Source: Gammaproteobacteria bacterium
Lineage (GTDB): Bacteria; Pseudomonadota; Gammaproteobacteria; Chromatiales; Chromatiaceae
Direction of reading: 5' to 3'
NCBI GenBank assembly: GCA_011390365.1
Contig: JAABSM010000008.1
Coordinates: forward strand, 1 to 64,000
DNA length: 64,000 nucleotides
Part shown: positions 3,329-64,000 of the stretch, one piece after another
How positions within the stretch are numbered: position 1 is the stretch's first letter
Layout of the letters: each line of letters starts with the position of its first letter
The notes under the pieces: generated by a model
What the model was told of the DNA's origin: nothing
What the model saw: the letters and a program-made list of their open reading frames with translations, nothing else
The model's database searches: none
Made by a program: the position numbers and the translations under genes

Positions 3329-6300
3329 TCAGGCGTTCTCCAGCTCGATCGCGGCCATCTGCTGGTACCGCTCGTAGCGCTTGTGGACCTCTTTCTGGGC
3401 CTCTTCGAGGAGCTGTTCGGCCGCTTCCGGGTCGTGGCGTTGCAGCATTCTGAAGCGGTTTTCCGAATCCATGAAGAGCTTGTAGTCCACCTTCGGCTCC
3501 TTGGAGTCGAGTTGCAGCGGATTCTTGCCCTGCTTCTCCAATCTGGGATCGAAGCGGAACAGGGGAAAATGCCCGCTCTCTACCGCCATCACCTGTTGCT
3601 GGTGGCTCTTGGCCAGCGGTACGCCGTGTTCGATGCAGGGGGCATAGGCGATGATGACCGAGACACCGTTATAGGACTCCGCTTCGGAGAAGGCCTTGAG
3701 GGTGCGCACATCCTTGGCCCCGTAGCAGACCTGGGCGACGTAGACATCGCCGTATGACATGGCGATCAGGCCCAGGTCCTTCTTGCGGAAGCGCTTGCCG
3801 CCGGCGGCGAACTTGGCCACCGCGCCCAGCGGGGTCGCCTTGGACATCTGACCGCCGGTATTGGAGTAGACCTCGGTATCCAGGATCAGGACATTCATGT
3901 TCTCGCCGGAGGCAAGGATGTGGTCGAGGCCACTGTAGCCGATATCGTAGGCCCAGCCATCGCCGCCGAAGACCCAGATGCTCTTCTTGGCCAGCTTGTC
4001 GATCACCGCCATCAGGTTGCGGGCCTCCTCGCTATCGAGCTTGGCGACCTTCTCCTTGAGCTCATCGATGCGCACGCGCTGGGCGAAGATGCCCATCTCG
4101 TCGCCCTGGTCGGCGTTGAGCACGGCATTGAGCAGTTCGTCGTCGTCGATTTCGGGACGCAGCTTCTCCAGCAGTACCCTGGCGTACTCCTCCTGCTTGT
4201 CCACCGACAGGCGAAAGCCCATGCCAAACTCGGCGGTGTCCTCGAACAGCGAGTTGTTCCAGGTCGGGCCGCGCCCTTGCGCGTTGGGGGAGTAGGGGGT
4301 GGTGGGCAGGTTGCCGCCAAAGATCGAGGAGCAGCCGGTGGCGTTGGCGATGTACATGCGGTCGCCGAACAACTGGGTGCTGAGACGCACGTAGGGGGTC
4401 TCGCCGCAGCCGACGCAGGCGCCGGAGGCCTCGAACAGGGGTTCGGCCAGCATCGCGGTCTTCATGGCGCCCCAATTGATGCGTTCACGATCGAACTCCG
4501 GAATGGTCAGGAAGTAGTCCCAATTGCGAACCTCCTGGGCGCGAATCGGCGCCTGGGGACGCATGTTGAGCGACCAGCGCTCCGGGTCCTGCTTGTCCTT
4601 GGCGGGGCAGATGTCGACGCACAGGGTGCAGCCGGTGCAGTCCTCGGGGGCTACCTGATAGCTGATGTGCATGCCCTTGTCGAACTCCTTGCCCTTGACC
4701 TCGATGTGCTTGAATTCGGCGGGGGCGTCGGCGACATCCTCGGGCATGAAGACCTTGGAGCGGATCGCGGAGTGGGGGCAGACGAAGACGCACTTGCCGC
4801 AGAAGATACACAGATCCTCTTCCCACACTGGGATCTCCTGGGCCAGGTTGCGTTTTTCATAGCGGGCCGAGCCGGCGGGCCAGACGCCATCCTGGGGGAT
4901 CGCGCTGACCGGCAGTTGATTGCCGCGCCCGGCGATGATCTCGCCGATGACGTTGCGCACGAATTCGGGGGCGTTGGCGGTGACCGGCGGGCGCATCTCC
5001 TTGTTGCTGGTGACCTTGGCCGGCACCTCGACCTTGTGCAGGCTGTGAACGGCGGCGTCGATGGCGCGGAAGTTCTGATCGACCACCTCCTGGCCCTTCT
5101 TGCCGTAGCTCTTCTCCACCGCCTCCTTGATGCGGGCGATCGCCTCATCCCTGGGCAGCACCCCGGAGATGGCGAAGAAGCAGGTCTGCATGATGGTGTT
5201 GATGCGCATGCCCATGCCGGTCTCGCGGGCGACCTTGTAGGCGTCGATGACGTAGAACTCGATGTTGCGATCGATGAGGGTCTGCTGCATCGATCTGGGC
5301 AGGCTCTGCCACACCTTGTCCTCCCCTTCCGGCGAGTTGAGCAGAAACACGGAGCCGTCCGCCGACTTCTCCAGCACGTCATGGGTCTCCAGGAAGACCG
5401 GCTGATGCACCGCCACGAAGTGGGCCTGACGATCACCGATGAGGTAGGTGGAGCGAATCGGGTCGGGTCCAAAACGCAGGTGAGAGGTGGTCATCGCGCC
5501 GGCCTTCTTCGAGTCGTAGACGAAGTAGCCCTGGGCGTAGAGATCGGTACCCTCGCCGATGATCTTGATGGAGTTCTTGTTGGCGCTGACGGTGCCGTCG
5601 GAACCAAGGCCATAGAAGACGCACTGATTGACCTTCTCCGCGTCGATAACGGTGAAGCCGTCATCCCACTCCAGGCTGGTATTGGCCAGGTCGTCGCGAA
5701 TACCGACGGTGAAGTTGCGCTTGGGGTTCTCCTTGTCGAGTTCGTCGAAGATCGCCTTGATCATGCCCGGGTTGAACTCCTTGGAGGCGAGGCCGTAGCG
5801 CCCGCCGACCACCCGCGGCATGATCGGAAACTTGACGCCGCCGCTGGTGGCATGGGTGGCGAGCGCGGTGACCACGTCCTTGTAGAGGGGCTCACCGTCG
5901 GCGCCCGGCTCCTTGCAACGATCCAGCACGGCGATGTTGCGCACGCTGGCCGGCAGGGCGTCGATGAGGTGCCGGGAGGAGAAGGGACGGAACAGGCGCA
6001 CCCGCAGCAGCCCCACCTTTTCGCCCCTGGCGACCAGGTGCTCCACCGTCTCTTCGCTGGCCTGGGTGGCGGAGCCCATCTGCACGATGACCCGCTCGGC
6101 GTCCTCCGCGCCGAGGTATTCGAACAGCTTGTAGCGACGCCCGGTGGCCTCGCCGAATTTGTCCATCGCCTTCTGCACGATCTCCGGGACCTTGGCGTAG
6201 AGAGGATTGACCGTCTCGCGCCCCTGGAAGTAGACATCCGGGTTCTGGGAGGTGCCGCGAATCGACGGGTGATCGGGGGACATGGCGCGGGCCCGGTGCT

Positions 6301-49885: not shown

Positions 49886-51085
49886 ATGAACACAGAGAAA
49901 AAACGCGCCAAGATACTCATCGTTGACGACTCAGCGGAGACCATTCGGCTGTTGAGCGGCATCCTCAAGGAGGATTATCAGGTGGTCATCGCCAAGGACG
50001 GGGAGAAGGCCCTAGAGCGGGCCGCCAATCCCTGCCCGCCGGATCTGATCCTGCTCGACGTGGTGATGCCCGGCATGGATGGCTACGAGGTCTGTCACCG
50101 CCTCAAGCGGGATAATCATACCCGGGATATCCCGGTGATCTTCACCACCATTCGGGACGAAGAGCAGGACGAGACCCGGGGCTTCGAGGCCGGCGCGGTG
50201 GACTACATCGGCAAGCCCCTGCGCGCCAGCATCCTCAAGGCGCGCATCAAGACCCACCTGGAGCTCAAGCGCCATCGCGAAGAGCTGGAGGAGCTGGTGG
50301 CGGAACGCACCGAGGCCCTGCGCAAGGCCAACGCGGAGAAGGAAGACGCGCTGCGCACCAAGAATGAGTTCCTCTCCTGCGTCACCCATGAATTGCGCAC
50401 CCCCATGAGCGGCGTGATCGGCATCAGCGACGTAATGCGCTCGCGCTGCGCCGATCCGGAAGACAAAAAGCTGCTGGGCTTCATCCGCTCCTCGGCCAGC
50501 GCGCAGATGCGGCTGATCGATGACATCCTCGACTTCGCCCGCCTGGAACTGGGCAAGGGACGGGCGGAAGAGGAAGAGATCTACCTTGAACGGGTAATGG
50601 CCACCGTCTCCGACATGTTTCTGCCCGAGATCCACGACAAGAAGCTCCACTACTCCCATCGCATCGATCCCGCCATCCCCCCTCGCCTGATGGGCGACAT
50701 CCGACTGTTGCGCCAGACCCTCATGAACCTGCTCGGCAACGCGATAAAATTCACCGAACAGGGTAAAGTGGAGATCAGCGTCACCCCCGGCGCCAATCCG
50801 GACGCCACGCCCGGTGAGTCGATCGAGCTGATCTTCGAGATACGGGATACCGGCGTGGGCATCCCGGAAGACAAGAAGGAGCTCATCTTCGAAGGGTTCG
50901 CCCAGGCCGACAGCTCCTCCACCCGCCGCTTTCAGGGGCTGGGGCTGGGGTTGAGCACCGCCAAGCGCATGATCGACCTGATGGGCGGAGAGATTACCCT
51001 GGAGAGCAGGGAAGCCGAGGGGGCGACCTTTCGCTTCAACGCGCGCTTCAGCGTCCCGCGCTCCGACGCCATCGGCTTAGGCTGA
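49886..51085 (+). CDS. Receiver-histidine kinase protein
   Basis: 399 residues, cytoplasmic. A receiver domain (about 8-125; ILIVDDSAE, phosphoacceptor Asp58 in LILLDVVMPGMDG, Lys in DYIGKPL), a coiled coil (about 125-155), HisKA (CVTHELRTPMSGVIG, His near 163) and HATPase (NLLGNAIKFTEQG, RDTGVGIPEDKK, GLGLGLSTAK). It takes input by phosphotransfer rather than a sensor. The next gene, 19 bp downstream, encodes the BvgS-like kinase, so the two likely form one relay. Confidence 0.88.
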   Translation: MNTEKKRAKILIVDDSAETIRLLSGILKEDYQVVIAKDGEKALERAANPCPPDLILLDVVMPGMDGYEVCHRLKRDNHTRDIPVIFTTIRDEEQDETRGFEAGAVDYIGKPLRASILKARIKTHLELKRHREELEELVAERTEALRKANAEKEDALRTKNEFLSCVTHELRTPMSGVIGISDVMRSRCADPEDKKLLGFIRSSASAQMRLIDDILDFARLELGKGRAEEEEIYLERVMATVSDMFLPEIHDKKLHYSHRIDPAIPPRLMGDIRLLRQTLMNLLGNAIKFTEQGKVEISVTPGANPDATPGESIELIFEIRDTGVGIPEDKKELIFEGFAQADSSSTRRFQGLGLGLSTAKRMIDLMGGEITLESREAEGATFRFNARFSVPRSDAIGLG

Positions 51086-51104: not shown

Positions 51105-56462
<5,358 letters not shown>

Positions 56463-56485: not shown

Positions 56486-57559
56486 TCAGCCGTAACAGAC
56501 CCGGTCCGGTCGATGGTGGCGCTGGCGGCAGATCGCACAGGGCGCGTTCGCGGGTAGCGGCTGGGAGGCGGTATGGATCGCCATGCCGCATTGCGGGCAG
56601 TGGTGGCTCAGGCGCAAACCGAGCGCCGCCTGGGCCTGGGGCCGCCAGTGGCGGAGGGTGATCGCGCCGGGGCGGCAGAGGTCGATGCATACCCCGCAGC
56701 CACTGCAATCACTGGCGGAGATGGCCAACTCCAGCCCTTGCCCGGGGGCGCCGGCATCGCCCCCTCCCCGCAACGCCAGGGCCGAATGGGGGCAGGCGCG
56801 GACGCAGTCGAGGCAGGCGTCGCATCGCAGCGGATCGATTTCCGGCAAGTTAGGCGGCAGACGGCTTGCGCCGAGCTCCCGCAACAAGCGTCCCAAGGGT
56901 TCGTTAGCCCTCTCCGCGGCGACCTCAGCCCCCCCATCGGGGAGCTGTTCCAGGCCCCCGTGCAGGGCACGGCGGAAGAATGCCCGCCTGTCGAGCCCCG
57001 CCTTCATGCCGGGGGAGAAATCCTGGCGCTGACGACTCCATGCCTTAACCGAAAGGAAGGCGAGCCGGATTTCGCCCAGGCCGTCGTGGCGCAGGGCACG
57101 ATTAAGCCTGGCGACCCGCTCTTCAAGACCCAGGCGCGGTCGCCTGGAACAATCGGCGCAATCAGCGACGGCGAGTTTCAAGCGACGGATGCGCCGGCGA
57201 TAGAGCTTGAGCAGATCACCCGCGCTCAGGGCGTGAATACAGGGGACGATGCCGAGGCCGGCGCGCGCGCCGCTGCGATCACAGGCGAAAAGGGCGGCAT
57301 CTCCGTCGTCGGCGGCGGGTGCGTAGGCATCCGGCGGCCTCAGCGCCTGCTCCGGGCAGGCGGGCACGCACAATCCGCAGCCGTCGCAGCGTTCACTGTC
57401 CAGGCTCAGGCCGTCTTCATCAAGGCGCCAAGCCTGGCTGGGACAGTGTTCGACGCAACAGCGGCAGGTGGCCGCCGCGAATCGATGATGGATGCAACGC
57501 TCGCCGAACCACTCGATGATGGGCAGTGGCGCATTCGAGAAGAAGTCCCGGAGCGACAT
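56486..57559 (-). CDS. NapF/MauM-like polyferredoxin
   Basis: 357 residues. Two ferredoxin-type regions hold four 4Fe-4S motifs: CRCCVEHCP and CDGCGLCVPACP near the N-terminus, CDACLDCVRACP and CSGCGVCIDLCRPG after residue 240. Other Cys pairs occur in the middle (ACDRSG, VADCADCSRR) and in a C-terminal zinc-ribbon-like end (HCPQCGMAI, CAICRQRH). NapF-type proteins help cytoplasmic maturation of Mo enzymes. It is last in the Mo operon, 6 bp after the torD-like gene, and convergent with the giant kinase (23-bp gap). Confidence 0.8.
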   Translation of the reverse strand: MSLRDFFSNAPLPIIEWFGERCIHHRFAAATCRCCVEHCPSQAWRLDEDGLSLDSERCDGCGLCVPACPEQALRPPDAYAPAADDGDAALFACDRSGARAGLGIVPCIHALSAGDLLKLYRRRIRRLKLAVADCADCSRRPRLGLEERVARLNRALRHDGLGEIRLAFLSVKAWSRQRQDFSPGMKAGLDRRAFFRRALHGGLEQLPDGGAEVAAERANEPLGRLLRELGASRLPPNLPEIDPLRCDACLDCVRACPHSALALRGGGDAGAPGQGLELAISASDCSGCGVCIDLCRPGAITLRHWRPQAQAALGLRLSHHCPQCGMAIHTASQPLPANAPCAICRQRHHRPDRVCYG

Positions 57560-57565
57560 CGCCGG

Positions 57566-58294
57566 TCAGAACGAAGGTGCGTCCACCGGCATGTTGCAGG
57601 GTGGCGGCAGCTCCTCGCGCGGTCGCCGCTGGGCCAATTCCCGCTCCAACTCCTCCGGATCGGGGCGGGGTAGGCCGACGATCCGCGCCAGATGATCGCG
57701 CAACTGCTCCAGATAATGCGTGGTCAGCAGCGCCAGTCCGCGAAAGTACTCACTGGCGCAGCGTTCGGCGACGCCGTCGGCGAAACGAGGCAGCCATCGC
57801 AACAGGTGGTGATCCATGAACTCGGCCGCCTTGTCGAGCCGGCCCTCGGCAACCAGGTGGGCGATGAAGTCGAGCTGGGGAACCAGATGATCGTCGCCCC
57901 GGTCACGCCGGTCGCCCAGCATCAGCCCCTCCGTCTTATAGGCCTCACGCACCTCGAACATCGCCACCTGGCGCTCCAGCCCCTCCTCGTCGAACCAGAC
58001 CGATTCACAGGGCGAGACGCGCAAGGTGTGATTGAGATAGATGTCCGCGAAATCCACTGCCAGGTGAACCAGATACTCATCATCCAGGCGCTGGGCCAAG
58101 GCCCCGCCCAGCCGCTCCACCACCTCCAGCGCGATCGGGTCTTCCAGACGCATCCCAAGCCGCTCGGGAAAACCCTGATCCCGAAGGCGCGTCAGCGTCT
58201 CCTCCTGCGGTTCCCGGTCGTGCAGCCGGGCGAGCAGGCGCAGGTCCGCCGCCACCGCCTGGCGATACTCCGCGAGGCGCTGCTGGGCGTTCAC
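57566..58294 (-). CDS. TorD/DmsD-family chaperone
   Basis: 242 residues, all helical. DFADIYLNHTLRVSPCESVW and AEFMDHHLLRWLPRFAD are characteristic of TorD-like proteins that bind the Tat leader of a molybdoenzyme and aid cofactor loading. It starts with GTG; GTGA overlaps the upstream Fe-S gene stop by 4 bp, and the ribosome site is GGTGGA. It serves, by context, the Mo subunit encoded in the same operon. Confidence 0.88.
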   Translation of the reverse strand: MNAQQRLAEYRQAVAADLRLLARLHDREPQEETLTRLRDQGFPERLGMRLEDPIALEVVERLGGALAQRLDDEYLVHLAVDFADIYLNHTLRVSPCESVWFDEEGLERQVAMFEVREAYKTEGLMLGDRRDRGDDHLVPQLDFIAHLVAEGRLDKAAEFMDHHLLRWLPRFADGVAERCASEYFRGLALLTTHYLEQLRDHLARIVGLPRPDPEELERELAQRRPREELPPPCNMPVDAPSF

Positions 58295-58953
58295 TCCACC
58301 TTCCCCTTACTATGGGCGACGAAGCGAATCGAGGGGTTGGTCAGGTCCGGGTTGGACATCCCCTTGACCTGGCGCGTGACCTCTTCGTTCGGGCCCACCG
58401 CCTTGGTCACCAGGGTGCCGTCGGCGATGCGGTCGATGGTGCCGATATCGAGCACCCGCATCATGCAGGCCATGACGCAGTACGGCTTGCGCCCCGCCTC
58501 CAGCTCGTCGATACACATGTTGCACTTCTTGACGATATTGTCGACCGGGTCGAACTGGGGCGCACCGAAGGGACAGGCCGCCTCGCAGCGCCGACAACCG
58601 ATGCATAGGGTCGAATCGATATCCACCACGCCGTTGTCCTTGCGCTTGAAGATGGCGCCGGTGGGACAGGTCGGCAGACAGGCCGGTTGCGCGCAGTGGT
58701 TGCACGACATGTTGACCTTGTAGGCATAGACCTCGGGATAGGTTCCACCCTCGATGTACTGAACGCGCCGAAAACGCGGCCCGGGGCCGAGCCCGTTCTT
58801 GTCCTTGCAGGCGATCTCACAGGCGCGGCAGCCGATGCAGTCGACGTTATTGTGGACGAAGCCCAGCTGATTGATCGGCTTGACCGGCACATAGTGCTCA
58901 CGCTTGCGCTTCTGTACCGCGTTCTTGATCTTTTCTTTGTCTTTCGCAGCCAT
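58291..58953 (-). CDS. DmsB-like four-cluster Fe-S subunit
   Basis: 220 residues. Four 4Fe-4S motifs: CIGCRACEIACKDKNG, CNHCAQPACLPTCPTGA, CIGCRRCEAACPFGAP and a final set from CNMCIDELEAG. This is the electron-transfer subunit of complex iron-sulfur molybdoenzymes. It has no signal peptide and would be exported bound to the Tat-targeted Mo subunit. Start ATG 58953 has GGAG 6 bp upstream. The C-terminal 60 residues lack a typical DmsB tail. No DmsC or NrfD anchor follows. Confidence 0.92.
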   Translation of the reverse strand: MAAKDKEKIKNAVQKRKREHYVPVKPINQLGFVHNNVDCIGCRACEIACKDKNGLGPGPRFRRVQYIEGGTYPEVYAYKVNMSCNHCAQPACLPTCPTGAIFKRKDNGVVDIDSTLCIGCRRCEAACPFGAPQFDPVDNIVKKCNMCIDELEAGRKPYCVMACMMRVLDIGTIDRIADGTLVTKAVGPNEEVTRQVKGMSNPDLTNPSIRFVAHSKGKVE

Positions 58954-58964
58954 GGGTATCTCCG

Positions 58965-61529
58965 TCAAAGGTCACGCCGGAAGACGTGGGAACGGGCGGT
59001 GGCCAGCTGGTCCCAGCCGGGACGATGGGCCTTGTCACTCTTGCGCACATCGCACAGTACGGTGTTGTAGGCGAAAGCGCCCGCCGGGCTGGGCTCATCA
59101 AGGGTCAGCACATCCGGATTGCCGGAGAGGTCGTCCCCCTCCTGGTCCAGGTCCAGCCAGGCCCCTTCGTGCAATACCACCACGCCGGGCATGCAGCGCT
59201 CGGTAACATAGAGCGGAACAATGCACTTGCCGCGATCGTTGAAGACCTCTACCGTATCGCCGGTCTTGAGTCCGAGCTTGCGGGCGTCGGAGGCGTTCAT
59301 GGTCAGCTCCTGATCGTAGGTCTCACGCAGCCACGGGATGTTATGGAAGATGGAGTGGGTGCGCCAACGCGGATGGGGCGAGATCATGTGGAAGGGGTGC
59401 TTCTTGATCTTCTCCTTTTCGCCCAGCCACTCCCAGGGCTCGATCCACTTGGGGATGGCGGGGATCGGGTAGCCCCAGGCGGTACGGGTGAAGTCCTTGG
59501 TCTGGGCCAGTTGGGTAGAGAAGATCTCGATCTTTCCCGACGACGTCTGCCATTGACCATTCTGCATGCGGCTTTCGACGATATCCTGAAAGGCGACATG
59601 GGGGCGGTCGAGCTTGAACTTGTAGGAGCCGGTATTCTTGAACTCCTCCCAGCTCATCTCCACGCCCTGGTGGCTTTGCACCTTGTGCCACCAATCCACC
59701 AGATAGGCCTCGTCGACCGGGTCGGGATTATCGAAGTAGTCGCGCCCCGCCTTGGGATTGTAGGTTCGACCGAACTTCTCGCCGCCGATGCGCCAGGCGA
59801 GCTCGGTGAAGACCTGAAAGTCGGTCTTCGACTCGCCCATCGGCTCGATCACCTTGGGGCGATGGATGTAGTAGTGGCCCTTGTACCAGGGCAGCGCCAC
59901 GTCGTGACGTTCGAAGTGGGTGGCGATCGGCAGCAGCACATCGGCGTAGAGCCCGGAGGGGGTGATGGTGGAGTCCATGCAGACCACCAGCTCCAGCTTG
60001 TTGATTGCCGCGATCTCCTTGTTGATGTTGGTCAGCTGGTTGAACCAGTCGGACCCCTGCCAGAAGATCCCCTTGATGTTGGGTATCACCCCATCCAGCT
60101 CATCGGTGCGCGGCCACAGGCCGATCTCCTCGCGCTTCACATTAGGGTAGTTGAGCACGCAATGGGCCCAGCGATCCGACTTGATGGAGGCGAACCAGGT
60201 GTTGGCGTATTGATCGTAGGGATAGGCCACCGCCTCGGCGTGCCAGGCCTTGCCGACCCCTTCGGCGCAGCCGCCGAGGACGCCGATATTGCCGGTCATT
60301 GCCTGCAACGCCGCCGCCATGCGGTTGTACTGCTCGCCATAGGCGTTGCGGCCCGGCGACCAGGAGGCCTTGAGCGCCGCTGGCTTGGTGGTGGCGTACA
60401 TACGCGCCAGCTTCTTGATGTCGTCGGCGGAGACGCCGCAGATCTCGGCGGCCCACTCGGGGGTCTTGGGCTGATCGTCGTAGTTGCCGAGGATATAGTC
60501 CTTGAAGTTCTCCTGGCCCTGCGCCCAATCCGGCATGGTACCGGCATCCATTCCCTGCACGAAGGTATCGATAAAATCCTGATCATGCAGATTATTGGTA
60601 AAGATATAATGGGCCATACCGGCCATCATCGCCGCATCGGTATTGGGCCGAATCGGGATCCACCAAGCGTCGTAGGTCGATGCCGAATCGGTGTATTGCG
60701 GATCGATCAGGACAAATTTGCAACCCTTCTGCTTGGCCATGCGCATGTAGTAGAAGGTATTGCCGCCGTGGAAGGTGTAGGCCGGATTCCAGCCCCACAT
60801 GATGATCAGCTTGGAGAAGGCGAAGGCGTCGTCCTCGTTGCCATCCTCGATGGTGCCGAAGGTGATGCGCGAGGAGAAGGTGGTGCCCTGGTAGGATGGA
60901 ACCGACCAGGAGTTGGTGCGACAGCCGAACATGCCCATGAAGCGACCGAGCAGCCCCTCAATCTGGTCCGACTTGTGCAGCACCCCGTAGGAGGCGCCGG
61001 CGTAGCTCTGGTCGACCAGCGCGGTGGGGCCGTAGGTGTCGCGAATGCGGATCATCTCCTTGGCGACATGGGTCAACGCCTCGTCCCAGGATACCCGTTT
61101 GAACTTGCCTTCCCCACGCTTGCCAACCCGCATCATGGGGTGCAGCAGGCGTTCCGGCGAATAGAGGCGGGAACGATAGGAGCGTCCGCGCAGACAGGCG
61201 CGCAGTTGCGGCTCTTCGAAGGTGTCCTTGCCGAACTCGCCGTCCTTCTGATAGCGCCCGTCGTCGGTGGAGAGGCGCACGATGACGTCGCCCTTCTTGT
61301 GCGCCACCAGCATATGCCGGGAGCCGCAGTTGTGGGCGCAACTGGTGGGGACCGTGGTCAGTTCGTCGTCCCGGGGGTAGGGCTCATAGGCGAACGCCTT
61401 GGCCTCCCTGGTCGCGTCGATACCGACCAGACTGCCCGCCGCCAGCGCGGCGCTGCCCTTGAGAAAATCCCGCCGGTTGACGTTGAGGGATGTTTCGAGA
61501 AATTCGAGTGGATCTTTTGGTTCTTTCAT
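58965..61529 (-). CDS. Molybdopterin oxidoreductase, DMSO-reductase family, Tat-exported
   Basis: 854 residues. The Tat leader NRRDFLKGSAALAAGSLVGI (about 18-37) is followed by the Fe-S0 region TSCAHNCGSRHMLVAHKKG and ACLRGRSYRSRLY: Cys64, Cys68, His72 and Cys112, with His where DmsA has the third Cys. The bis-MGD domains follow (IIMWGWNPAYTFHGGN, VLIDPQYTDSAST, IFWQGSDWFNQ), with the dinucleotide-binding domain from PFHMISPHPRWRTHSIFHN. It resembles DmsA/YnfE-like and selenate or sulfoxide reductases; the substrate is unknown. ATG 61529 lies 6 bp after AGAGG. It sits between a pentahaem cytochrome and the DmsB-like gene. Confidence 0.92.
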   Translation of the reverse strand: MKEPKDPLEFLETSLNVNRRDFLKGSAALAAGSLVGIDATREAKAFAYEPYPRDDELTTVPTSCAHNCGSRHMLVAHKKGDVIVRLSTDDGRYQKDGEFGKDTFEEPQLRACLRGRSYRSRLYSPERLLHPMMRVGKRGEGKFKRVSWDEALTHVAKEMIRIRDTYGPTALVDQSYAGASYGVLHKSDQIEGLLGRFMGMFGCRTNSWSVPSYQGTTFSSRITFGTIEDGNEDDAFAFSKLIIMWGWNPAYTFHGGNTFYYMRMAKQKGCKFVLIDPQYTDSASTYDAWWIPIRPNTDAAMMAGMAHYIFTNNLHDQDFIDTFVQGMDAGTMPDWAQGQENFKDYILGNYDDQPKTPEWAAEICGVSADDIKKLARMYATTKPAALKASWSPGRNAYGEQYNRMAAALQAMTGNIGVLGGCAEGVGKAWHAEAVAYPYDQYANTWFASIKSDRWAHCVLNYPNVKREEIGLWPRTDELDGVIPNIKGIFWQGSDWFNQLTNINKEIAAINKLELVVCMDSTITPSGLYADVLLPIATHFERHDVALPWYKGHYYIHRPKVIEPMGESKTDFQVFTELAWRIGGEKFGRTYNPKAGRDYFDNPDPVDEAYLVDWWHKVQSHQGVEMSWEEFKNTGSYKFKLDRPHVAFQDIVESRMQNGQWQTSSGKIEIFSTQLAQTKDFTRTAWGYPIPAIPKWIEPWEWLGEKEKIKKHPFHMISPHPRWRTHSIFHNIPWLRETYDQELTMNASDARKLGLKTGDTVEVFNDRGKCIVPLYVTERCMPGVVVLHEGAWLDLDQEGDDLSGNPDVLTLDEPSPAGAFAYNTVLCDVRKSDKAHRPGWDQLATARSHVFRRDL

Positions 61530-61553
61530 AGCCATCCTCTTCCGGCTGCGGGG

Positions 61554-62336
61554 TTAATTGTCGGCGGATGTGTCGAGACGGTAGCGCGCCTCGGATTGCG
61601 TCGGCCTGTCCTTCGCCCACTCCGGAATGGTGTCGGAGATTCCTGGCCACGAGTTGCGCGGATAGGGGAAACTGGTCTGATACCATGACCTTCCGCCGTG
61701 ACAACCGTAGCAAACATCCGCATCCTTGTTGCCAAGGTATTCAATGTTGCCAGGGTGCAGATAGCTGACCTTATGACGGTTGGTGCGTATGGTCTGGTGA
61801 CACAGCGTACAGCTGTCATTGAACATATCCCGGGTTTCGTGCCAAGGGCCGGGAAGGTTCATGACCTTGTAGTCGTATTGACCATGGCAACGCAGACAGG
61901 TCTTTTCCACATCGACCATCTTGCGCAGGTTGTAACCGGAATCATCCTGATTGTCGGCATGGGATGCGGGCGCCTCCTCGCGGGGATCGCTACCGCGATG
62001 GCAGAAATTGCATTGCAGGTTCATCACCTGTCGCGCCAACTGAGATTGCAGGTGGCGATAGTGGAAAGACTCCTGCTCTCCGGCATAGCTATTCAAGGTC
62101 TGGTACCAAGCCTCGGTATCGGATCGCTTGACCCCGGCCGGACTGGTTTTCAGCGGCTTGCGGATCAGGATTTCCAAATGACATTCGAGACATTGCTCAT
62201 TGGTGGCGGAATCTATGGCTGGCTGGAAATGGATCGGATCCCACTTCGCGGCCTGATAGTCCTCGTTGGCTGTCACCGAAAAGACGAGCGGCAAAAGCAT
62301 CAAGGGTACAAGATGTCTGAGTCCGATTATCCGCAT
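61554..62336 (-). CDS. Periplasmic pentahaem cytochrome c
   Basis: 260 residues with a signal peptide (about 1-23, ending SVTANE). Five CXXCH motifs: CLECH (49-53), CNFCH (109-113), CLRCH (147-151), CTLCH (176-180) and CYGCH (209-213). Other His residues (for example in ESFHYRHLQ and NRHKVSYLH) could be distal ligands. It probably passes electrons to or from the Mo enzyme, as NrfB or DmsE do in other systems. It starts after GGGGGAG and 18 bp or more before the Mo gene. Confidence 0.93.
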   Translation of the reverse strand: MRIIGLRHLVPLMLLPLVFSVTANEDYQAAKWDPIHFQPAIDSATNEQCLECHLEILIRKPLKTSPAGVKRSDTEAWYQTLNSYAGEQESFHYRHLQSQLARQVMNLQCNFCHRGSDPREEAPASHADNQDDSGYNLRKMVDVEKTCLRCHGQYDYKVMNLPGPWHETRDMFNDSCTLCHQTIRTNRHKVSYLHPGNIEYLGNKDADVCYGCHGGRSWYQTSFPYPRNSWPGISDTIPEWAKDRPTQSEARYRLDTSADN

Positions 62337-62370: not shown

Positions 62371-62410
62371 AAAAAGAACGGTAGGCGACGCCCTCGCCGC
62401 CTACCGTTCT
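62371..62410 (-). terminator. Intra-operon terminator/attenuator
   Basis: A perfect 13-bp stem (AGAACGGTAGGCG, 62375-62387, with its complement 62398-62410) and 10-nt loop, followed on the minus strand by TCTTTTTCC. It lies between the Gly-Met-Ser gene and the cytochrome gene, so read-through must express the enzymes. Confidence 0.75.
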
Positions 62411-62431: not shown

Positions 62432-63343
62432 TTATTGGGCAGGAGGGGTCCAACCGCCCATGCCACCCATGCCGGACATGCCACCCATGCCGGACATGCC
62501 ACCCATGCCGGACATGCCACCCATGCCGGACATACCAGCCATGCCACCGGGGATCCATACCCAGTTACCGGACATACCGGACATACCGCCCATGCCGGAC
62601 ATACCGCCCATGCCGGACATACCGCCCATGCCGGACATTCCCGACATACCGCCCATTCCGGACATGCCGCCCATGCCACTCATTCCGGACATGCCGCCCA
62701 TGCCACTCATTCCGGACATGCCGCCCATTCCGGACATGCCGCCCATGCCGCTCATTCCGGACATGCCACCCATTCCGGACATGCCGCCCATTCCGGACAT
62801 TCCGGACATTCCGCCCATTCCGGACATGCCGCCCATGCCGCTCATTCCGGACATGCCGCCCATTCCGGTCATCGGATAAAAGAAAATCTCACCCTGAGGT
62901 GAGATTCTGAAATATCCGCTCATGCCCGCCATGCCGGACATGCCGCCCATGCCGGACATTCCCGACATACCGCCCATGCCACTCATCCCGGACATGCCGC
63001 CCATCCCGGACATACCGCCCATGCCACTCATCCCGGACATGCCGCCCATCCCGGACATACCGCCCATGCCACTCATTCCAGACATGCCGCCCATCCCGGA
63101 CATACCGCCCATGCCACTCATTCCGGACATGCCACCCATGCCGCCCGGAATCCAGACCCAGACGCCATTATTGCCGGACATACCCGACATGCCACCCATT
63201 CCTGACATACCTGACATGCCGCCCATTCCGGACATGCCGCCCATGCCGGACATACCGCCCATTCCGGCCGTAGCCGCAGGCGCAGCCACCAGAGAACCGA
63301 TGATCGCGGCCAAGCCTGCCATTTTCTTGAAAGTCTTCAACAT
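62432..63343 (-). CDS. Secreted Gly-Met-Ser/Gly triplet-repeat protein
   Basis: 303 residues. Signal peptide 1-26 (MLKTFKKMAGLAAIIGSLVA, cleavage after AATA). The mature chain is about 78 tandem Gly-Met-(Gly/Ser/Ala) triplets in four blocks of 10, 25, 33 and 10. The blocks are split by NNGVWVWIPG (58-67), YFRISPQGEIFFYPMT (about 144-159) and NWVWIPG (260-266), and the chain ends GWTPPAQ. No Cys, almost no charge; Met is over a quarter of the residues. GGGGG lies upstream of ATG 63343. I know no family with this repeat. Possible roles are Cu(I) or other soft-metal binding, methionine-sulfoxide buffering, or a structural polyglycine-II-like assembly. The function is unknown. Confidence 0.85.
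   Translation of the reverse strand: MLKTFKKMAGLAAIIGSLVAAPAATAGMGGMSGMGGMSGMGGMSGMSGMGGMSGMSGNNGVWVWIPGGMGGMSGMSGMGGMSGMGGMSGMSGMGGMSGMGGMSGMSGMGGMSGMGGMSGMSGMGGMSGMSGMGGMSGMAGMSGYFRISPQGEIFFYPMTGMGGMSGMSGMGGMSGMGGMSGMSGMGGMSGMGGMSGMSGMGGMSGMGGMSGMSGMGGMSGMSGMGGMSGMGGMSGMSGMGGMSGMGGMSGMGGMSGMSGNWVWIPGGMAGMSGMGGMSGMGGMSGMGGMSGMGGMGGWTPPAQ
62456..63267. repeat. Tandem DNA repeats coding the Gly-Met triplets
   Basis: Units of 9 and 18 bp such as CCCATGCCGGACATGCCG and CCCATGCCACTCATTCCG, with synonymous changes (ATGCC/ATTCC, GGACAT/GGACAA-type) between blocks. The DNA repeat is interrupted at the three non-repeat inserts. The repeat is prone to slippage and to assembly error. Confidence 0.85.
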
Positions 63344-63407: not shown

Positions 63408-63719
63408 TCAGCGGCCTTTGTGCCAACCACGAAGATCGTAGTAACCCGGCATTCCCGGATGACTGAAGGGCGTATACCATGCCCCCTGATCCTCCAGAAA
63501 ACCCAAGCTGCTCGGGTAGGGCGCCGTTAGGCCCGTTAGGGCCTGCGCATACCATCCTTTTCCCTTCACATATTCCGTTATCGTCGGCGCCCCAGCGGGC
63601 CTCTCCGCCGGATTGACTCCGCTGATGGGATACTCCGCCCCGAAACAGGCATTGCCGCCAAAACAGGCCAAACCGAACGCCAACAGCGCCGCTTTCTTTG
63701 GATACGCATATCGATGCAT
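63408..63719 (-). CDS. Small secreted protein of unknown function
   Basis: 103 residues with a signal peptide (about 1-27; LLAFGLACFGGNACFG, cleaving near GAEYP). The mature part is rich in Gly, Pro and Tyr (GKGWYAQALTGLTAPYPSSL, then PGMPGYYDLRGWH). Two Cys lie in the signal region; LACFGG could be a lipobox-like site, so a lipoprotein is possible. It is the first gene of the sigma-54 operon, 64 bp before the triplet-repeat gene. No family recognised. Confidence 0.65.
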   Translation of the reverse strand: MHRYAYPKKAALLAFGLACFGGNACFGAEYPISGVNPAERPAGAPTITEYVKGKGWYAQALTGLTAPYPSSLGFLEDQGAWYTPFSHPGMPGYYDLRGWHKGR

Positions 63720-63809: not shown

Positions 63810-63825
63810 AGCAACCCCTGTGCCA
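63810..63825 (-). promoter_or_regulatory. Sigma-54 (RpoN) promoter of the Mo operon
   Basis: On the minus strand TGGCACAGGGGTTGCT: the GG and GC elements are 10 bp apart and both half-sites match the consensus TGGCAC-N5-TTGCW. The GC lies about 92 bp before the ATG of the first gene. Activation would need an enhancer-binding protein. Confidence 0.75.
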
Positions 63826-63909: not shown

Positions 63910-64000
63910 ACCTGCCAAGCTGTCATAGCCAAGCTGAAGAATTCGGGGAAAAAGCCCGTAACTGCGCACTTTCCCGGTCATGTCAAATTGGCAGTCCAGC

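Follow-up and report, generated by a model that had tools for sequence, protein, structure and literature searches.

The Met-rich open reading frame on the reverse strand of the window (the whole 64,000-nt stretch that was analysed) is a real gene, and its product is unusual. It belongs to a cassette that runs in the order small exported protein, Met-rich protein, multihaem cytochrome c, DmsA-like molybdoenzyme, DmsB, TorD-type chaperone and ferredoxin (Table 1). A spacer of 95 bp follows the Met-rich gene, and the subsequent junctions are 18 bp, two 4-bp overlaps and 6 bp. The first gene product (P0007) had no Pfam or NCBIfam family match over its 103 aa, and shows conserved stretches resembling WYxxALTG, FLExQGxWYTPF and PGMxGxYDIRGWH. 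Shortly after the window ends, the same contig (L006) encodes a HAMP histidine kinase in divergent orientation and a response regulator of the sigma-54 type. The kinase (L006:4227-6161, +) has two N-terminal CxxCH motifs and is possibly a haem-c sensor; its plasmid relative retains one. At the other end, a 1785-aa hybrid sensor kinase (51105-56462, +), seemingly with repeated substrate-binding domains when inspected by eye, faces the cassette and is preceded by a smaller response regulator/kinase at 49886-51085.

Table 1. Features of the cassette and its upstream region in the window
Feature	Position	Strand	Basis or remark
Polyferredoxin	56486..57559	-	NCBIfam
TorD-type chaperone	57566..58294	-	NCBIfam
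DmsB-like 4Fe-4S subunit	58291..58968	-	NCBIfam; start codon uncertain
DmsA-like molybdopterin oxidoreductase, TAT signal	58965..61535	-	NCBIfam/Pfam, structure comparison
c-type cytochrome, five CxxCH, signal-like start	61554..62336	-	Annotation and motif count
Predicted 16-bp stem-loop, then U4-5	62375..62410	-	Folding; between Met-rich and cytochrome genes
Met-rich (GMx)n exported protein	62432..63343	-	ATG start, 303-aa ORF, homologues
Insert NWVWIPG, residues 260-266	62546..62566	-	ORF translation
Insert YFRISPQGEIFFYP, residues 144-157	62873..62914	-	Predicted beta hairpin; near copies in several relatives
Insert VWVWIPGG, residues 61-68	63140..63163	-	ORF translation
Putative signal peptide, residues 1-26	63266..63343	-	Ends ATA before GMGG; cleavage site judged by eye
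Small exported protein (P0007), 103 aa, first operon gene	63408..63719	-	Signal-like start
Sigma-54 promoter match TGGCACAGGGGTTGCT	63810..63825	-	Single match in window, 0.06 expected
Degenerate palindrome copy TGCCAAGCTGTCA	63913..63925	.	Same search as TGTCAAATTGGCA
Palindrome TGTCAAATTGGCA	63981..63993	.	Possible upstream activator site

The Gly/Met triplet periodicity described in the initial annotation is real: 78 GMx triplets were counted in the reading frame, with Ser (45), Gly (31) or Ala (2) as the third residue, and TRF reported the array as periods of 9, 18, 27 and 45 bases. Secretion and lack of charge, which had also been proposed, were borne out by a predicted export signal and by a mature part of 277 residues that lacks Cys, His, Asp and Lys altogether and contains 117 Gly, 79 Met, 46 Ser and a single residue each of Arg and Glu. 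The claimed lack of Cys holds for the window protein and fails as a general trait, with Cys present in 18 of 68 related arrays. Similarly, two of the inserts are the Trp-rich VWIPG type that had been described, and the third (YFRISPQGEIFFYP) differs. The protein ends in WTPPAQ, and a Trp stood among the final nine residues in 13 of 16 aligned Met-rich sequences (window counted), in the context WTPP in five and WSPP in one. Two proteins just past the window, at L006:2016-2813 (-) and 3346-4020 (-), have GWxVxxxxxGxLxLYPP-like motifs that resemble the hairpin insert by eye; they had no Pfam match, and a similar cluster was present in 13 of the 80 related loci. A sigma-54 match at L006:2760-2775 lies near the likely start of the first of them. 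Another Met-rich gene of the same genome, at L005:7372-7902 (contig 169 of G000), is shorter (176 aa) and contains the insert YGAYKVHGNGVVTLHP; a subtilase-like ORF and a transposase-like one lie nearby, and no enzyme cassette was recognised within 15 kb.

The initial annotation had raised the concern of an assembly artefact, which is contradicted by comparable Met-rich genes on single-contig chromosomes (G037, G043, G096, G139, G163), in CP059265.1 (L112), which is titled a complete genome and whose gene encodes 140 Met, and on a complete plasmid. The array is of low complexity, and in 27 of the best 80 of 315 related loci it starts no more than 30 nt from a sequence end, so that the sequence ends within the array, as an artefact or a decaying, functionless DNA repeat would predict. 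Given the complete replicons, the codon-level conservation and the spread over three proteobacterial classes, we regard that explanation as negligible. The exact repeat number in the window's 169-contig draft could still be off. In the window array, all four codons were used for the first Gly of the triplet (41/19/13/5) and six for the triplet Ser; Gly and Ser codons also varied among the arrays of 67 related loci. With all Gly and Ser codon forms in use, the array is maintained at the protein level and is not a fresh DNA expansion.

Selection on Met was then counted in 67 of the 80 loci, over runs of at least 10 GM unbroken by N and only for triplets with Met on both sides. Among 2836 interior triplets, position 2 was Met in 2796, Gln in 36, Leu in 2, Ile in 1 and Ser in 1, and position 3 was free (Ser 1588, Gly 973, Asn 165, and others). 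Leu and Ile are nearly absent, though either would be tolerable in a merely hydrophobic or helical role; the thioether sulfur is therefore likely to be the working part of the array and to be selected as such. This strong selection on Met itself favours the thioether array that had been suggested as the functional feature.

Structure prediction gave little order in the repeats. In an AlphaFold run with 16 sequences, most repeats had no predicted secondary structure and a pLDDT of about 36-43, which climbed to about 50 towards the C-terminus; a helix was predicted at residues 2-19 (the signal region), and the YFRISPQGEIFFYP hairpin (pLDDT 82) was the sole confident part. These values give no support to the polyglycine-II-like methionine ladder of three residues per turn that the initial annotation had put forward, nor do they speak against it. 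NCBIfam matched the Met-rich protein (P0001) to collagen-like adhesin models alone, at 28 bits against cut-offs of 500 and 325, and seven relatives gave models of this kind plus one weak Spy and one weak BRANT match. We rejected a collagen-like adhesin identity because scores so far under the cut-offs reflect composition. The Pfam Collagen model (PF01391) likewise scored 17.2 bits, under its gathering threshold of 27.2. The C-terminal tail of GroEL, which shares the Gly-Met repeats and is a 24-residue part of a chaperonin whereas our protein is an exported one, has been measured to adopt polyproline II, according to the accessible part of that paper (PMC12571646). By analogy, a polyproline-II tendency of the GMx array is plausible, and it would place Met on one face.

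The export signal, the repetitive and almost uncharged sequence, the weak Collagen match and the polyproline II of Gly/Met tails could all suit a structural protein, which might form a fibre or coat of hydrophobic Gly/Met character, for instance around sulfur globules, or serve as a scaffold in the periplasm. We consider this improbable, since swaps to Leu, Ile or Val should then be tolerated, yet they are nearly absent. Some hosts (Paracoccus, Hyphomicrobiaceae, Methylocystaceae) are, to our knowledge, not known for stored globules. The sulfur globule proteins SgpA-D have regular P-X2-P prolines, whereas the window protein has 7 Pro in 303 residues, mainly in the inserts and at the C-terminus; the accessible text of PMC10386293 also describes regularly spaced prolines in known globule proteins.

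To follow the cassette across genomes, we made one scan with the molybdoenzyme and took the best 80 of 315 relatives, whose enzymes were 77-81% identical to that of the window and at least 74% identical to each other. The host titles included Thiothrix, Thiolinea, Thiofilum, Ca. Thiodiazotropha, Sedimenticola, Thiohalocapsa, Rhodovulum, Paracoccus, Sulfuritalea and Thermopetrobacter, together with Hyphomicrobiaceae, Methylocystaceae and many MAGs placed only to family, order or class, so that these loci span Alpha-, Beta- and Gammaproteobacteria. Many of the named hosts belong to sulfur-oxidising genera. The search for GMx repeat proteins that had been recommended was productive: a cluster of at least six GMx lay upstream of dmsA, on the same strand and less than 4 kb away, in 68 of these 80 loci, and none lay elsewhere in them. 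Eight of the 12 loci without an array have less than 1.5 kb of upstream sequence, and among the loci with more than 1.5 kb the array preceded cytochrome-dmsA in 45 of 49. It was absent despite upstream DNA in L107, L146, L155 and L157, the last of which retains a short MGGMSGWTP.

The other cassette members were counted among these 80 loci wherever enough sequence is available. The cytochrome was found in 77 of 78 eligible loci, the DmsB-like subunit in 79 of 80, the TorD-type chaperone in 73 of 75 and the polyferredoxin in 56 of 72, and the small exported protein in 35 of the 37 with more than 3 kb upstream. The kinase was present in 21 of 24 loci in which both flanks are long (over all 80, kinase 41 and regulator 40). 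A complete plasmid of Rhodobacter xanthinilyticus carries the whole set with kinase and regulator immediately downstream; there the Met-rich protein is annotated as hypothetical, the small exported protein was matched by eye only, and the regulators are 42-43% identical to those near the window. The locus counts include near-duplicates (Thiodiazotropha strains) and overlapping records (G064 contig 14, LVKA01000015.1) and are not counts of independent events.

We also examined the association in genome samples. In 195 genomes of the same family, 48 had both genes, 4 the Met-rich gene only, 4 the enzyme only and 139 neither (Met-rich E<=1e-12); at a looser Met-rich threshold of 1e-6 the values were 48, 19, 4 and 124. 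A class sample of 273 further genomes gave 12, 2, 0 and 259 in the same order, and a phylum sample of 298 genomes gave 4, 3, 0 and 291; in these two tables a Met-rich gene means about 50% identity or more, and in the phylum table G544 (47%) and G488 were counted on identity alone. G552, one of the three phylum genomes with the Met-rich match only, is spurious, with no GM repeat at the match. Weak Met-rich matches outside the clade (about 16-47% identity) were set aside by identity, and the matched stretches of L236 (G552) and L234 (G206) are other simple repeats without GM. The enzyme clade itself is separate: scoring the three best candidates per genome in 274 and 299 genomes (overlapping samples), we found no enzyme between about 37% and 71% identity at E<=1e-120, clade members being at 71% or above and ordinary DmsA at 37% or below.

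Among the unselected clade copies of the class and phylum samples (all 17 listed there, the window's own excepted), 14 had the array, as did 11 of the 13 with more than 1.5 kb upstream. A further 15 copies, chosen as second copies or as odd-looking, had it in 5, giving 19 of 32 in total. Second enzyme copies lacked the array in L209, L210, L212 and L213 and had it in L198, L208 and L211. Copies without it despite more than 1.5 kb upstream were L194, L197, L209, the second copy of L210, L212, L213, L216, L217, L218 and L221; the genomes of L194, L197, L216, L217 and L221 have a Met-rich match elsewhere, and that of L218 has none at 1e-6. By eye, a Crp/Fnr-like regulator is encoded upstream of the array-less dmsA-like copies in L209, L210 and L216. 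The array was missing from all four loci of ordinary DmsA (34-36% identical), a small control from two families.

The molybdoenzyme is related to S/N-oxide reductases and departs from them in several motifs. The DmsA-like protein scored 608.5 bits against TIGR02166 (DmsA), under the cut-off of 777.7, and the DmsB-like subunit scored 184.1 bits against the NCBIfam Dms model, under 214.1. The closest solved chains were DMSO reductase and then 7l5i, labelled TMAO reductase, the MetO reductase MtsZ. An AlphaFold model of the enzyme (mean pLDDT 41.8 from 12 similar sequences) was unusable for a fold search. Ser214, invariant in 12 of 12 aligned sequences, aligns with Ser147 of DorA (1eu1), presumably the Mo ligand. 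The clade has SYAG where DorA has SYGW, with DQSYAGASYG in at least 95% of the clade alignment. Its FS0 motif is C-x3-C-x3-H...C (P0003 residues 66-114), with His74, invariant in 12 aligned members, at the third Cys of the usual motif; ordinary DmsA has CGSRC in three of four sequences and CGGKC in the fourth. No DmsC-type subunit was recognised by eye in the window cassette, the recurrent locus clusters or the annotated plasmid region. A class I cytochrome c domain was found in 4 of 4 six-haem alphaproteobacterial cytochromes scanned and in 0 of 4 five-haem ones.

SYAG, the unrecognised DmsC, His74, the class I fusion and a likely MsrP elsewhere in the genome make an oxidising enzyme the main rival, namely a sulfur-compound dehydrogenase whose Met-rich partner binds, stores or presents substrate or shields the complex. 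In that case the multihaem and class I cytochromes would be the electron acceptors, and the Met-rich protein would have no part in MetO reduction. Many host genera are sulfur oxidisers, SoxB was over cut-off in 9 of 13 DmsA-clade genomes of the class sample against 112 of 274 overall, and the His in FS0 could make the redox tuning unusual. As evidence for sulfur oxidation the SoxB linkage is weak, and 4 of the 13 clade genomes have no SoxB over cut-off. The closest characterised relatives are S/N-oxide reductases, and the near-absolute retention of Met needs a thioether role; we judge a dehydrogenase unlikely.

Regulatory elements were found by reading, folding and pattern search. The predicted stem-loop after the Met-rich gene folded with z -4.2, and none of 200 shuffles was equally stable. 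A strong stem followed the Met-rich stop in 37 of 68 related loci, compared with 2.9% of 1360 shuffles (permuting non-overlapping dinucleotides) and 0 of 80 coding controls; a T-run was present in only 7 of the 37. A stricter terminator script, which gave 13 of 65 loci, was too strict and is superseded by this count. The stem probably acts as a terminator/attenuator or 3' stabiliser, and it may lift the Met-rich product over the enzyme through attenuation or 3' protection, which is what a substrate pool needs. Upstream, we searched with the sigma-54 consensus. Of the 37 loci whose first repeat has 700 nt or more of sequence before it, 14 had a match ahead of the array in a strict search and 20 in a relaxed one; the remainder of the loci gave expectations of 0 and 0.015 per 900 nt, respectively. 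Sigma-54 control of the cassette is probable. Of 36 related loci, only 3 contained a strict copy of the palindrome TGTCAAATTGGCA. A generic sigma-70 promoter and terminator scan of the window gave 1 promoter and 5 terminators, where shuffled sequence gave 2.2 and 4.8, and missed the 16-bp stem.

Taken together, we consider it slightly more probable than the reverse that the Met-rich protein serves as an exported oxidant sink present in many copies and that the molybdoenzyme reduces its sulfoxides back. The thioethers of the exported protein would absorb oxidising equivalents as its methionines turn into the sulfoxide. Electrons passed on by the multihaem cytochrome and by DmsB, the iron-sulfur subunit, would allow the DmsA-like enzyme to restore methionine, so that protein and enzyme together may work as a methionine sponge that soaks up oxidants and can be recharged. 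We infer the role of the Met-rich protein as substrate, the reducing direction and the nature of the oxidant, as well as the periplasmic location and the excess over the enzyme. The reading draws on the conserved linkage and co-occurrence of the array with the enzyme clade and its absence from ordinary DmsA loci, on the selection of Met amid varying Gly and Ser codons, on the closest solved chains and the Mo-ligand Ser position, and, for dosage, on the strong stem-loop. The DorA and E. coli DmsABC precedents also speak for it. According to the accessible text, DorA reduces protein-bound MetO and prefers the peptide GAGM(O)Q over GYM(O)E (PMC7402097), and E. coli DmsABC reduces MetO, with dmsA induced by hypochlorite (PMC12096835).

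Several results weigh against the oxidant sink. The clade has SYAG in place of SYGW, a motif that has been called necessary for sulfoxide reduction; DmsC was not recognised; the Dms models scored under cut-off; and class I cytochrome c domains may fit electrons leaving the enzyme. The genome likely contains another MetO reductase, having one match over cut-off to NF003767/PRK05363 (presumably MsrP) on another contig (C122). Some clade copies have no array, and few of the stems carry a T-run. DorA has been reported to reduce Met-S-O only. One E. coli strain became more resistant to being killed by HOCl when DmsA was lost, as described in the accessible part of PMC12096835.

Two further readings concern what the thioethers would do. 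As a rechargeable, protein-bound terminal electron acceptor, the Met-rich protein would be charged to sulfoxide by oxidants, its 79 Met then holding about 158 electrons' worth of capacity per molecule, and would be discharged by the respiratory chain through cytochrome, DmsB and the DmsA-like enzyme once other acceptors are exhausted. We think this quite unlikely; if true, cells at oxic-anoxic boundaries would carry their own electron sink. Metal buffering is also doubtful, and a little more so. MxxM is a Cu(I) motif, and the 78 triplets provide it serially, which could buffer periplasmic Cu(I), Ag(I) or Hg(II); the mature window protein, however, contains no His, its constant partner is a molybdoenzyme, and no copper-export gene was seen among the 14 clusters found in at least 8 of 80 loci (inspected by eye over the first 150 residues of one representative each). 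Because the Met-rich gene is part of a molybdoenzyme cassette, the purely structural or metal role originally proposed ranks below a redox role. The conserved seven-gene cassette, often accompanied by a two-component regulator of its own, couples a Mo enzyme to a thioether polymer that seems made for the purpose. Should the two cycle MetO, the function of this distinct DmsA-like clade in the cell could be tested directly, and a natural Gly-Met polymer would become available for materials and redox chemistry.

In a search of the literature outside subscription journals, none of the titles and abstract openings listed describes the cassette, and no paper contained the strings GMGGMSG, GMSGMGG or GGMSGM, which is not proof of absence. 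With DmsABC and DorABC the window system shares a DMSO-reductase-family catalytic subunit, a TAT signal, a DmsB-type subunit and a TorD chaperone, and its Ser214 appears to occupy the Mo-ligand position of the Ser-ligated S/N-oxide reductases. It differs in its 34-36% identity to four ordinary DmsA, the FS0 His, SYAG for SYGW, the absence of a visible DmsC, and its own cytochrome and Met-rich partner. The accessible text of PMC12096835 names E. coli-, Shewanella- and Ynf-like DmsA groups and none like the window clade. Bacillus cereus uses exoprotein Met as an antioxidant that is recycled by a reductase; its MsrAB acts with many proteins, and no dedicated Met-rich carrier is seen in the accessible text, unlike in the window cassette (PMC5526929). 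Similar in design are MrpX-YedYZ (MsrPQ) of Azospira suillum and BcrXQP of Brucella, in which a Met-rich peptide is likewise encoded with a Mo MetO reductase and its Met cycling is described, in the parts accessible, as oxidant scavenging (PMC4623255, PMC8315932). BcrX is, in the same accessible text, an MXKDX repeat protein and its enzyme is of MsrP/YedY type under an ECF sigma factor, whereas the window protein consists of GMx triplets without that pentapeptide and its enzyme belongs to the DMSO-reductase family, has iron-sulfur and multihaem partners and is probably under sigma-54 control. The operon partner in the window is also DmsA-like in place of the MsrP of an MsrP/MsrQ operon, the NF003767 match lying on C122. 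We therefore claim no membership of the MrpX, DmsABC or DorA systems; the system resembles the MrpX/MsrP cycle but is built from unrelated proteins, and if it does cycle MetO, Met-rich scavenging arose at least twice.
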